From: a virus
Length of the DNA stretch: 55,190 nt
Direction: 5' to 3' (one strand)
Virus record (IMG/VR): IMGVR_UViG_3300030108_001120
Coordinates: 1-55,190 of that record
Every line of letters starts with the position of its first letter. Within the stretch, counting starts at the first letter, position 1. A program made the translations under genes and the position numbers. Below, in pieces: positions 1 through 54,499 of the stretch. The notes beneath the pieces were generated by a model. The model did not search any database and was not told the DNA's origin. It saw nothing but the letters and a program-made list of their open reading frames with translations.

Positions 1-342
1 TGCATATTCGTGTAAGAAGTTTAATCTAGCCAAACCTGACCAGATCAGTGCTCTTGACCACGTTGTAAATCTTTGAGTAGTTAACTCAGTACCATTAAGC
101 ATTACCCATCTTACTTCACGTTGATACTTAGGATTTAGCTGCCATATTCTATCGCTGCTATCACACCTACGTACATAACCTGATTTGTAAGTCGCTAACA
201 TTTGCCCTGTTGGTAATTTAAATTGACGTGTACCGTTTTTCCACTGTCTTTTAGTAGTAACTTCTACAATACCGTCTTCGTGAAGCATAGCGCGTGCGTA
301 TGCATTTTCTAGTCGTAATTGTTCTTGTCTCCATCTAGTCAT
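1..342 (-). CDS. Partial hypothetical protein (C-terminus beyond left edge)
   Basis: An open frame of 114 codons starts at the ATG at 340-342 (minus strand) and runs off the left edge without a stop. The visible protein is basic and rich in Arg, Trp and Gln (starts MTRWRQEQLRLENAYARAML). I do not recognise a family. Its start overlaps the stop of the next upstream gene by 8 bases, as is usual for this tightly packed minus-strand cluster. The composition is coding-like, but function is unknown. Confidence 0.6.
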   Translation of the reverse strand, partial: MTRWRQEQLRLENAYARAMLHEDGIVEVTTKRQWKNGTRQFKLPTGQMLATYKSGYVRRCDSSDRIWQLNPKYQREVRWVMLNGTELTTQRFTTWSRALIWSGLARLNFLHEYA

Positions 343-574
343 CTGAGTCGGGTTTTAAAAATTCTGTTCCATACATAATATCTGTACCTGTAACATCAAA
401 GCTGTGTTTGTCAGTAAACATTAGTATGCTTCTAATAGTATCTAGTTGTAAATCATACCAGCCATCTGAAGCCATAAGTTTATACTTAAGTCTTTTAGCT
501 GAGGTATATTTATGCGCAGCTAATCTAATTTTTAGCTGATAATGAGGTTTTAGTTGTTTCCAAACGTTTTTCAT
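335..574 (-). CDS. Hypothetical protein, 79 aa
   Basis: Small basic N-terminus (MKNVWKQLKPHYQLKIRLAA) with an acidic tail ending PDSDD. No family recognised. The ATG lies 9 bases downstream of the core of one copy of the repeated 39-bp element (584-622), so this is the first gene of a short minus-strand unit that continues into the partial gene at the left edge. The AAAACTATG context has no Shine-Dalgarno sequence. Confidence 0.6.
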   Translation of the reverse strand: MKNVWKQLKPHYQLKIRLAAHKYTSAKRLKYKLMASDGWYDLQLDTIRSILMFTDKHSFDVTGTDIMYGTEFLKPDSDD

Positions 575-622: not shown

Positions 623-644
623 AACATGACATTTTGTCATATAG

Positions 645-716
<72 letters not shown>

Positions 717-1089
717 ATTTCTTGGGTGGTATCATGCATAATACCCACGCTTTCTGGGGCTAAGTAAACCAAGTCATTGACTCTAATACACTTCCGTACG
801 TTCGCTTATACCCGTCGGTAGTCGACACCACATAGTGTCCTGTATTCTCGGCTTCATAACCGTCCTTCGTGTTTTAACCCATAATATTTTACCCGGCTGT
901 CACTACGACTGGCTTTGTACAACTGATACCTCAAGGAAGCCAAGGCGTCGATTTACTGTTAAGCCGGGTTTTGTAACTCATTGATACCTAAAAACTTAGC
1001 AACTGCACCCGTTTACACCTAATGCCTAATGACTAGGTGTACGCTGCCTCGACTTACGTTGCCTTGTTACGGTTAGCTATTCAGTTATG
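717..1089 (-). ncRNA. Candidate structured non-coding RNA beside tRNA
   Basis: About 370 bases with no credible gene and clearly higher G+C than the flanking AT-rich genes. On the minus strand several strong helices can be drawn. A perfect 8-bp hairpin is 1014-1021/1034-1041. A perfect 8-bp long-range helix is 891-898/962-969, with a nested perfect 6-bp helix 910-915/937-942. There is a GACACT/GGTGTC hairpin near 827-842 and an imperfect hairpin near 726-748. It sits between a compact tRNA-like hairpin (1090-1136) and a tRNA gene. Large ornate phage RNAs (GOLLD, ROOL) are known to occur beside tRNAs, but I cannot show homology. A conserved RNA is inferred, not demonstrated. Confidence 0.45.
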
Positions 1090-1136
1090 TAGTGGTGGCA
1101 GGAGTCGAACCTGCACCTTAGTACCGTAGCACCACT
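1090..1136 (-). other. tRNA-like acceptor/T-arm minihelix 1
   Basis: On the minus strand: AGTGGTG, a 15-base connector, then T-stem GCAGG, T-loop TTCGACT, CCTGC, then CACCACT and an A in the discriminator position. The 7-bp acceptor stem and 5-bp T-stem are both perfect. D and anticodon arms are absent. The loop is identical to that of the tRNA-Met at 645-716. This is the minimal shape recognised by RNase P and other tRNA-processing enzymes. It could be a processing signal, part of the adjacent structured RNA, or a remnant of a tRNA. Confidence 0.55.
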
Positions 1137-1171
1137 CTAATTAACCTACTCGTCTAACTATCTATCAATGA

Positions 1172-1357
1172 TTACAAGTGCCATTCTTTTAATAGTTTAA
1201 TGGCTGATGCTTTTATTTTAGTGAAAGAACTATCATCTAACATATCTGTATAGTCTATTATTCTATTCAATGCTCTTTCAACTTCAGTGCATAGATAAGC
1301 TGATTCTCTATCAATCATTTCATCTTGCATTTGCTCATATGCTTTTTTACTATCCAT
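1172..1357 (-). CDS. Hypothetical protein, 61 aa
   Basis: Begins MDSKKAYEQMQDEMIDRESA. Charged and predicted helical throughout, no family recognised. The next gene upstream ends one base before this ATG, so the two are probably co-transcribed. Its stop is followed, 35 bases on, by the tRNA-like minihelix 1. Confidence 0.55.
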   Translation of the reverse strand: MDSKKAYEQMQDEMIDRESAYLCTEVERALNRIIDYTDMLDDSSFTKIKASAIKLLKEWHL

Positions 1358-10591: not shown

Positions 10592-12148
10592 ATGACAGAT
10601 AAACTTGTTAAAAATCTTAACTTTGGTCAAGAAGCTCAAGGTAAGATATTAAATGGAATAGATAAACTCACAAAAGCTGTTAGCTCCACTCTTGGGGCTA
10701 ACGGTAAGTGTGTTATCTTAGAAGACAATTTAGGTAAACCCACCATAACAAAAGATGGTATTACAGTAGCAGAAAGTATTACACTGCTTGACCCTGTTGA
10801 AAACATGGGTGCAGCTTTAATTAAAGAAGCGGCTCGTAAAACAGTAAAAGAAGCGGGTGATGGTACTACAACTGCAACAATACTAGCTCATTCAATTTTA
10901 CAGCTAGCTAAAAAGCAAGATAATAACAATGTAAGATCGCTAAAAGAAGGTATTGACTCAGCTGTAAACAAAACAATAAAATACTTAGATAAAATAAGTA
11001 TACCTGTTGTAGATGATATGGTAGAACAAGTAGCAACAATATCAGCTAATAATGATAATGAATTAGGTAAAAAAATTGCTGAAGCATTTTTATCAGTAGG
11101 AAAAACTGGTGTTGTAGCTATGGAAGAATCTGATACAGATCAGACGTATATAGAAATAGTAGATGGTATACAATATGAAAAAGGTTTAAAAAACATGAGT
11201 TTTGTTACCGATAAAGCAGGTAAAAAAGCAGAGCTTATAAAACCTTTAGTGTTAATTGTAGAATCTGAAATAGAAAATATACGCAAAATACAAGCTGTAT
11301 TAGAACATGTTATAAAAACTAATAGACCTTTGTTAATTATAGCTGACGCCGATACTAAAGTTCTTGCTGCTTTAGCTATGAATAAAATAAAAGGTAATAT
11401 AAAAATAAATATAGTTGATGCTCCAAATTTTGGTGTTACTAAAAAACAAGTGTTAAATGACATTGCTTTAATGACTGGGGCTACAGTTATTAATGAACAT
11501 TTGGGTGATGATTTAGATTTAATACAACCAGAACATTTAGGTGAATGTATAAAATCAGTAACAACAGAATATGAAACCATTATACAGGTAGCAGGTGTTT
11601 CACCAGAAGTAGAAGATGTTATTGAGCAGGTGAAAAAAGATATAGCTAATGAAACAAAACCTGGCCCTATAACAAGACTTGAAAAAAGATTAGCATTACT
11701 ATCTGCTAAAATAGCCAATGTAAAAGTTGGTGCTAATTCTGACGTAGAATTAAAAGAAAAGAAAGATAGAGTAGAAGATGCTGTTTGTGCTACAAAAGCC
11801 GCGATAAAAGAAGGTATAGTTCCAGGTGGAGGTATAGCTCTACTTAACGCGTCAACAAAAATTAAAGCTGCTAACAAAGCAGAACAAGTTTTATTTGATG
11901 CTATTAAATCTCCTTTTAATATTATACTTAGCAATGCTGGTATAAAAAATGATATACCCATAGTTAAAGAAAAAATGGGTATTGATGTGGTTACAGGAAA
12001 TATGGTAAACATGATTGATAGTGGTATTATTGATCCACTATTGGTTACAAAGAGCGCCCTAAAAAATGCGGCTTCTGTGGCTACAACTATTTTATCAACT
12101 GATTGTGTAATAAATAATATTAGAATACATGAAGGCGATAGGAGATAA
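10592..12148 (+). CDS. groEL: GroEL-type chaperonin (Hsp60)
   Basis: 518 aa, group I chaperonin subunit forming ATP-driven folding rings. Visible hallmarks: TLGANGKCVILEDNLGKP in the equatorial domain, the ATP site GDGTTTAT (residues 89-96, catalytic Asp at 90), and GIVPGGGIALLNAS in the second equatorial part. It is about 30 residues shorter than the bacterial protein and lacks the GGM-rich tail, ending NNIRIHEGDRR. Its 3' end overlaps groES by 20 bases, and the order is EL-ES, the reverse of the usual bacterial operon. Probably folds the capsid or other virion proteins. Codon use matches the surrounding phage genes, so it is not a recent host acquisition. Confidence 0.95.
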   Translation: MTDKLVKNLNFGQEAQGKILNGIDKLTKAVSSTLGANGKCVILEDNLGKPTITKDGITVAESITLLDPVENMGAALIKEAARKTVKEAGDGTTTATILAHSILQLAKKQDNNNVRSLKEGIDSAVNKTIKYLDKISIPVVDDMVEQVATISANNDNELGKKIAEAFLSVGKTGVVAMEESDTDQTYIEIVDGIQYEKGLKNMSFVTDKAGKKAELIKPLVLIVESEIENIRKIQAVLEHVIKTNRPLLIIADADTKVLAALAMNKIKGNIKINIVDAPNFGVTKKQVLNDIALMTGATVINEHLGDDLDLIQPEHLGECIKSVTTEYETIIQVAGVSPEVEDVIEQVKKDIANETKPGPITRLEKRLALLSAKIANVKVGANSDVELKEKKDRVEDAVCATKAAIKEGIVPGGGIALLNASTKIKAANKAEQVLFDAIKSPFNIILSNAGIKNDIPIVKEKMGIDVVTGNMVNMIDSGIIDPLLVTKSALKNAASVATTILSTDCVINNIRIHEGDRR

Positions 12149-53631: not shown

Positions 53632-53797
53632 AAACTTTAATATTGTATTGGTCTTGATAACCAACTAGTTCTTTATATTTTACTTTTCCTCTTTGTTCCC
53701 ACGACCATTTAACCCACTTGTCAATTTGTCGTTCTGCATATTTTTTCCTAGCTATTATTTTAGATAACTTAGGATTAACCTTACTGTTTCGTCGCAT
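53624..53797 (-). CDS. Basic hypothetical protein, 57 aa
   Basis: ATG at 53795-53797; MRRNSKVNPKLSKIIARKKY, then AERQIDKWVKWSWEQRGKVK. It starts inside the end of the endonuclease gene (43-base overlap) in another frame and ends overlapping the next start. The basic, Trp-containing helical sequence suggests nucleic-acid binding. Too small to name. Confidence 0.5.
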   Translation of the reverse strand: MRRNSKVNPKLSKIIARKKYAERQIDKWVKWSWEQRGKVKYKELVGYQDQYNIKVYG

Positions 53798-54213
53798 TCC
53801 TTTTGATTTTGTGGTTTAAATAGTATCGTGTTAGGATAATTTTTTACTACATATTTTTTAAATAATTTCCAACGTAAAGGAAAAGACTCGTTAGCTCTAC
53901 CTTTACATTCAATTATAAAACTATAATCAGGACAAATAAAATCAGGAGTATATTTAATTGGTAATATTTTTTTTCTACCACGTTGTTTAAACTCTCCTTT
54001 ACCATTTGCCGTACGTTCGTATGAAGCATTGTTAAACATATAGTCTTCAACTACTTCAAACGTAGCACCTTCATATGTAGCTTTTATCTTAGCTTTTTTA
54101 AGCGCTTGATACATATAACGCTCAAGACCTGAGGCAAATTTAATACCATCATATGTTACTTTTTTTGCCTGTACAGGTCCGCGTTTTTTTCTTTTATAGA
54201 TCTTCTTCTTCAT
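53755..54213 (-). CDS. T7 endonuclease I-like Holliday-junction resolvase
   Basis: 152 aa from ATG 54213 (an ATG at 54228 is also in frame and overlaps the upstream gene further). It carries the PD-(D/E)xK site: Glu31 in FASGLERYMYQAL, Asp91 in YTPDFICPD, and Glu102/Lys104 in IIECKGR. This matches T7 gp3, which cuts branched DNA and helps host-DNA breakdown and packaging. Basic N-terminus (MKKKIYKRKKRG). Confidence 0.85.
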   Translation of the reverse strand: MKKKIYKRKKRGPVQAKKVTYDGIKFASGLERYMYQALKKAKIKATYEGATFEVVEDYMFNNASYERTANGKGEFKQRGRKKILPIKYTPDFICPDYSFIIECKGRANESFPLRWKLFKKYVVKNYPNTILFKPQNQKECDETVRLILSYLK

Positions 54214-54499
54214 AATGTAATCCGTCATTACCGTTTTGACCTATAATGTTCATTCTATTTAACATACATTCTTCTACTTCATCTCTTAAACATTCTCTGG
54301 CTGCTTGTATATACAACAACGCATCCATTATTTCTTCTTGTACATCAATTAAAAAATCATTGAGATCTTTGTCTTTGCCCTCGACCTCTTCCATCATCAT
54401 TGCACCGTACTTAGCTTGACCAATCAGACTACGTTGGTCTATCTTTTCGATTACTTTATGTACGATTTTATCGTCTGTTTTTACTACGTATTTATTCAT
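54194..54499 (-). CDS. MazG-like NTP pyrophosphohydrolase-related protein, 101 aa
   Basis: KIDQRSLIGQAKYGAMMMEE and LNDFLIDVQEEIMDALLYIQ form the helical metal-site pattern (EExxD/E) of all-alpha NTP pyrophosphatases in phages. A Met/Cys/Glu-rich tail follows. Its start overlaps the MazG-type gene before it by 8 bases, so two related enzymes lie in tandem. Substrate unknown. Confidence 0.65.
   Translation of the reverse strand: MNKYVVKTDDKIVHKVIEKIDQRSLIGQAKYGAMMMEEVEGKDKDLNDFLIDVQEEIMDALLYIQAARECLRDEVEECMLNRMNIIGQNGNDGLHYEEEDL

Follow-up and report, generated by a model that had tools for sequence, protein, structure and literature searches.

Fixed scaffolds and exchangeable modules in an RNA locus of marine phages

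We describe a family of phage RNA loci built from fixed scaffolds and exchangeable plugs, in which the same plugs are mounted on different sockets by means of new self-complementary stems. The member studied here is encoded in a 55,190-nucleotide stretch of viral DNA (the window), which is part of a 56,049-base IMG/VR virus record. Its RNA locus occupies window positions 717-1172 on the minus strand, with an initiator-type tRNA-Met gene on one side and a 61-aa ORF on the other, and the RNA is a chain of separately folding domains (scaffold A with module M1, module M3, and domain D with module M4) that ends at this tRNA.

The locus and its surroundings

Both small ORFs flanking the locus and the tRNA gene are on the minus strand, as is the comparative evidence, and on these sequence grounds the RNA is placed on that strand. 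The 61-aa ORF (1172-1357, minus strand) lies directly upstream of the RNA and has no Pfam family over its cut-off. The 79-aa ORF downstream of the tRNA (335-574, minus strand) has no Pfam match, nor did a tblastn search of phages return one. ARAGORN called the tRNA-Met(CAT) gene (644-716, minus strand), which scored 65 bits with the Rfam tRNA model, carries an A1.A72 mismatch and is followed by CUA, not CCA. Its anticodon stem has AGG/CCU pairs beside the loop (GGG/CCC in some relatives). We take it to be an initiator tRNA because it combines the CAT anticodon, the 1.72 mismatch and a G-C-rich anticodon stem. Right behind the tRNA lies the palindrome ATGACAAAATGTCAT (626-641), perhaps a terminator or operator, which also follows the RNA locus in L103, L136 and, in part, L104. 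The AT-rich element GATAATATAATAAA (575-600), ahead of the 79-aa ORF, recurs in relatives, where it is accompanied by a TACGA element and precedes the next ORF; it is a possible phage promoter. Elsewhere, the window encodes a GroEL (10592-12148, plus strand; PHROG E 6e-136) and, adjoining ribonucleotide reductase genes, a DUF1064 protein that weakly matches Phage_endo_I (53755-54228, minus strand). The nearest relative of the window's terminase is that of a podovirus from Manatee Spring (61.6%), followed by those of Flavobacterium, Cellulophaga and Tenacibaculum phages, so the host is likely flavobacterial.

A sequence-only reading had singled out positions 717-1089 as a gene-free, GC-richer stretch that could encode a new RNA of the GOLLD or ROOL type. 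Indeed, 717-1171 contains no ORF of at least 60 aa, and 717-1170 has a G+C content of 44.7%, compared with 33.0% across the whole window; 0.75% of 1072 equal-length stretches elsewhere are at least as rich. The structured unit extends past that stretch, since its 5' domain begins at about 1177 and a minihelix at 1090-1136 lies inside it. No Rfam family except tRNA matched the window at gathering thresholds, and none covered the RNA. GOLLD and ROOL were both rejected as identities, as neither gave an Rfam match in the window, at E up to 10 on 560-1300, or in 17 relatives; tRNA was the only family found in these relatives. What stands of the proposal is a new, conserved and structured phage RNA in the same niche beside tRNA-Met, with an architecture unlike that of GOLLD or ROOL.

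Three helices had been named in that reading, and all three are present at their positions in the minus-strand fold. In relatives, covariation supports 891-898/962-969, and the hairpin 1014-1021/1034-1041 has no comparative support because its arm was found in none of them. Helix 910-915/937-942 is neither supported nor refuted, as it is nearly invariant among the eight sequences compared. Folding energy was rejected as evidence for a structured RNA, being too weak for 717-1170 (z -1.04 on the minus strand, -0.19 on the plus strand) and ranging from z -1.1 to -2.0 for single domains. The case for non-chance structure is comparative, and the conserved pairing that the sequence-only reading had set as a test was found in scaffold A and in the M3 helix, both of which covary.

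Scaffolds and plugs in relatives

Scaffold A (971-1177, minus strand) is closed by an outer helix, P1 (1163-1177/971-986, one bulge), which was read from the sequence and is present in the MFE fold. P1 incorporates the upstream ORF's stop codon (1172-1174), and its partners co-vary in relatives L109, L102 and L110. The core (1072-1158) consists of helices P2 (1155-1158/1072-1075) and P2b (1142-1145/1084-1087) with two conserved stretches, GACGAGTAGGTTAATTAG (1137-1154) and ACATAACTGAAT (1079-1090), between which lies the plug socket. The arm between P2 and P1 (989-1070), which holds hairpin 1034-1041/1014-1021, is absent from relatives, and comparison with L100, L102, L106 and L113 gave no support for its helices.

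Eighty-one distinct copies of the scaffold A core were gathered with two short motifs that did not require pairing. Twelve other pattern hits were dropped: L232, L250, L253 and L263 had no 3' half in the range searched, L101, L112 and L114 ran into a contig end, L108 and L115 were apparent chance hits in coding sequence, and L291-L293 were bacterial chance hits. The helices of scaffold A covary, although pairing played no part in finding it. The P2b pair that joins the nucleotide following TAG in TAG(C/G)TTAA to the one following ATAA was C..G in 70 copies, G..C in 11 and mixed in none (Fisher p 8e-14), where copies, here and throughout, are counted as sequences and not as independent events. 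P2 pairs -1:4, -2:5, -3:6 and -4:7 were formed in 81, 75, 70 and 68 of the 81 copies (shuffle maxima of 76, 59, 66 and 67), and the position beyond P2 does not pair, with pairs in 20 of 81 against a shuffle mean of 21.6. Sixty-five distinct plugs occupied the socket; the smallest are a short loop (L261, L290) and the largest exceed 100 nt. Plug ends formed a closing stem no shorter than 5 with their own partner in 48 of these 65, compared with 9.9% when the ends of different plugs were combined.

Module M3 (891-969, minus strand; 10 distinct copies) has a closing helix, 962-969/891-898, and two inner helices, 947-950/906-909 and 937-942/910-915. Its core of some 60 nt is nearly identical across stems that differ by place (GCCGGG-type as a separate hairpin; AUUACU-type; and, in L270, within a tRNA-like domain). 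Among eight aligned copies, seven of the eight closing pairs were altered on both sides around a near-constant core; 97.2% of the alignment cells pair, the covariation score was reached in 0 of 500 shuffles, and slid structures dropped to 17-44%. L121 and L270 were omitted from this alignment because their closing stem is off by one column; by eye, both pair.

Domain D (724-880, minus strand; 18 distinct copies, with L117 excluded for its missing 3' half) comprises outer pairs 878-880/724-726, helix 868-871/746-749, hairpin 739-745/728-734 and a plug between 859 and 760. The helix reads CACG/CGTG in 15 copies and CAAG/CTTG in the other three. Its plug in the window contains module M4 (TATGTGGTGTCGA..arm..CGTACGGAAGTGTATT; 785-834, minus strand), which is mounted in domain D in L106, L107, L125 and L150 as well, in scaffold A elsewhere (e.g., L145, L165) and in tRNA-like domains (L174, L179, L143). 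Likewise, M2 was found in three sockets (L100, L106, L107), and M7 in scaffold A (L110, L246) and in tRNA-like domains (L130, L150). M6 (GGYGGCATACWGGTCACGTTAG..), too, forms a frame and bears a variable arm of its own; it was seen in 14 distinct contexts (L138, L145, L148, L203 and others). Locus length varies widely among relatives, down to two small domains, a P1 hairpin and a minimal domain D, in L116.

The relatives were collected in several ways. A DNA search of 47 capsid-relative records selected out of 80 loci gave matching pieces in G003 and G014, and the exact minihelix pattern gave L100-L102. Patterns made from conserved stretches hit 13, 11, 19, 105 and 74 viral-contig stretches, the fourth of these patterns being short and many of its 105 hits due to chance. 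Each of the 49 RNA-bearing records tested, taken from longer contigs among the collected loci, encodes the window's terminase (74-99% identity). This match is broken into several pieces in G080, G090, G057 and G051, with stop codons in two, and the breaks may reflect introns, frameshifts, the ends of records or faulty assembly. Scaffold A was not found in MW202828, a phage with 62% terminase identity, and a more distant relative (G045; L105:1000-2000, minus strand) has another structured-looking stretch ahead of tRNA-Pro. Three scaffold-pattern hits in a one-genome-per-species bacterial collection all lacked the 3' half of scaffold A and are attributed to chance; one of them (G048) was also the sole hit among 397 genomes of the Flavobacterium family. 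Plasmids gave no match to the RNA. Among the matches listed for annotated phages, the best were to the tRNA part; the long relative was unmatched in these phages, and the mini-tmRNA gave only short T-arm matches.

tRNA-like domains and the minihelix of the window

Many relatives carry a tRNA-like domain (TLD) laid out as an acceptor stem, a D-loop-like AUGGU without a D-stem, a variable insert, a T-arm, the acceptor strand, A73 and CUA. When T-arms before CUA were picked without regard to pairing, 181 had all five T-stem pairs and the other 172 were scattered over 0 to 4. From 188 T-arms, leaving out 55 in tRNAs, 32 without a D-loop anchor and 35 with one to five acceptor pairs, we obtained 66 non-tRNA TLDs with seven of seven acceptor pairs (where one T-arm had several D-loop anchors, the best was taken by pairing). 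In these, a wobble occurred at 3:70 in 62 and at 4:69 in two, and nowhere else. G3:U70 was present in 62 of the 66 and A73 in 63, while position 4:69 took six pair types. This count is fairer than an earlier one of 57 TLDs and 31 tRNAs, whose rule permitted one wobble only. In that set, CUA followed all 57 TLDs and 19 of the 31 tRNAs. PMC9976931 and PMC6451123 give G3:U70 and A73 as the bacterial alanine signal, the former also counting G4-C69, found in just 11 of the 66, among the determinants of bacterial alanyl-tRNA synthetase (AlaRS); tmRNA is charged with alanine according to PMC3929946.

The Rfam tmRNA model recognized two of these domains above its gathering score, L251 (66.1 bits, E 2.5e-24) and L246 (64.9 bits), skipping about 300 positions, which correspond to the missing mRNA-like domain; L280 and L261 matched below that score. 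Across the 50 RNA-bearing records, the model matched in 38, five of them over the cut-off and several of the weak ones in the T-loop only, and gave no match in 12. The D-loop stretch UGGUUUUGAC is common to the phage TLD and Flavobacterium tmRNA (L294), whose 5' starts are GGGGGUGACCUGGUUUUGAC (L251) and GGGGUCGACUGGUUUUGAC, respectively. A tRNA in L131:315-455 (plus strand; Rfam tRNA 51.6 bits) has normal acceptor, D and T arms and some 80-90 nt replacing the anticodon loop. In MW202828 (L299:520-630), the anticodon arm of a tRNA-Leu-like gene contains an approximately 30-nt loop, and another tRNA-like element, degenerate, follows directly; ARAGORN calls neither.

The plug of scaffold A in the window is M1 (1090-1136, minus strand; 17 distinct contexts among the collected loci), a 46-nt tRNA minihelix with a 7-bp acceptor stem, linker CUACGGUACUAAGGU and T-arm, plus discriminator A. 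A split or complete tRNA at 1090-1165 was ruled out with ARAGORN and Rfam. Lacking D and anticodon arms, M1 reached 22.3 bits with the tRNA model (threshold 29), and its match to the tmRNA model (RF00023) was weak (15.2 bits, E 9.9e-6; cut-off 47 bits). It has U3:A70, not G3:U70, is followed by CAU, not CUA, has no insert and at 46 nt leaves no room for an mRNA-like domain or pseudoknots. Given the weak tmRNA-model match, M1 is probably a minimal relative of the tmRNA-like domains, one that lacks both insert and G3:U70. A GG in its conserved 15-nt linker could dock in the T-loop.

Possible roles and known systems

One general reading comes close to an even chance in our estimation: a single lineage may keep a few RNA sockets (scaffold A, domain D, M4, M6 and the TLDs) and a shared set of mobile plugs, yielding combinatorial, fast-changing RNAs aimed at the host, with alanylatable TLDs as delivery heads. 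For the TLDs themselves, we tentatively propose, at somewhat less than even probability, that they act as decoys against host trans-translation. Host tRNA enzymes would process the transcript at its tRNA and tRNA-like ends, and such maturation would account for the CUA shared after the discriminator. The TLDs would then compete with tmRNA for the factors that it works with, foremost SmpB and, in the G3:U70 class, AlaRS and EF-Tu as well, so that trans-translation would be damped during infection, and swapping plugs would tune or add targets as host pressure changes. The decoy mechanism is suggested by a precedent: passages in PMC4131195 and PMC11915505 describe an RNA of mycobacteriophage DS6A that is little more than a TLD and inhibits endogenous tmRNA, alanylatable or not, perhaps by titrating SmpB. 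The TLD would depend on host SmpB, as none of the 50 phage records has an SmpB gene (control genomes were positive in 10 of 14). Several observations argue against this proposal. AlaRS determinant G4-C69 is infrequent in the TLDs, 12 of 50 records have no tmRNA-model match, and trans-translation leaves M2-M8, scaffold A and domain D unexplained. In the window, which has M1 as its minimal TLD, the claim is weaker than for relatives with full TLDs: SmpB or factors that bind the elbow are possible partners of M1, which has no G3:U70, making alanylation unlikely, scores low with the tmRNA model and is missing the greater part of the D-loop/P2 region through which SmpB would recognize tmRNA.

The modules might instead be decoys or inhibitors aimed at host defences based on RNA sensing or cleavage (tRNA nucleases, toxin-antitoxin RNases, RNA-sensing systems), with plug exchange as an arms race and the phage initiator tRNA as a substitute for a cleaved host one. 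Exchange on fixed scaffolds within a single phage lineage, the several mutually unrelated module types and the adjoining initiator-type tRNA all fit this idea, which we nevertheless consider unlikely: the modules match no known antitoxin or other Rfam family, and the anticodon loop that tRNA nucleases usually target is absent from the TLDs. A cis-acting element for operon processing or stability, in which scaffold A follows a small-ORF stop, the TLDs and tRNA are cut sites for RNase P and RNase Z, and the plugs are neutral ornaments, appears improbable. It would agree with the CUA behind the TLDs and tRNAs and with the small-ORF stop codon that precedes the core of scaffold A by 4-18 nt, both in the window and in 9 of 12 records inspected. 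However, neutral ornaments would not hold the M3 core near-identical on differing stems, nor would neutrality preserve G3:U70 while 4:69 varies. We give little credence to a structural RNA like GOLLD or ROOL that self-assembles or scaffolds a particle and has variable peripheral arms. The niche is the same, and GOLLD has a less conserved 5' region in the part of PMC12286853 that treats it, but the Rfam models of both are unmatched and the two-domain L116 would, by analogy, be too small for a cage. Finally, functionless debris, decayed tRNAs and hairpins gathered at a recombination hot spot, would suit the adjoining tRNA gene and the uneven lengths, but is largely refuted by covariation, along with the conserved cores and G3:U70, and hardly merits consideration.

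Compared with known systems, the decoy reading of the TLDs is closest to the TLD-only tmRNA of DS6A, with which we group the CDS-less plastid tmRNAs. The likeness is a phage-encoded tmRNA-like tRNA domain without a tag reading frame; here, in contrast, it serves as a socket that takes many different inserts and is found among other scaffolds across a marine phage lineage, and the M1 of the window has neither insert nor G3:U70. With tmRNA itself (RF00023), as represented by that of Flavobacterium, the relatives share the acceptor stem, the D-loop without D-stem, the T-arm, G3:U70, A73 and UGGUUUUGAC, whereas the mRNA-like domain and pseudoknots are absent and most inserts are unrelated to tmRNA. 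M1 resembles tRNA minihelices in joining an acceptor stem to a T-arm, but keeps its linker and sits within a larger RNA. GOLLD and ROOL, presented in passages of PMC12286853 as large structured phage RNAs near tRNA genes, are each one large conserved fold, unlike the small exchangeable modules found here. A TLD-only tmRNA is a known kind of RNA, and the plug-and-socket locus could not be matched to any known kind in the open-access literature, where we found neither a description of such a locus nor a precedent for its exchangeable architecture. If the TLDs are indeed decoys, RNA is the means by which a marine phage lineage attacks ribosome rescue, and the single case of DS6A becomes a family. 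Domain shuffling is well known for phage proteins, and stems rebuilt around conserved cores are sequence evidence of the same logic in RNA, with modules that are natural portable RNA domains whose ligands are open to direct search.
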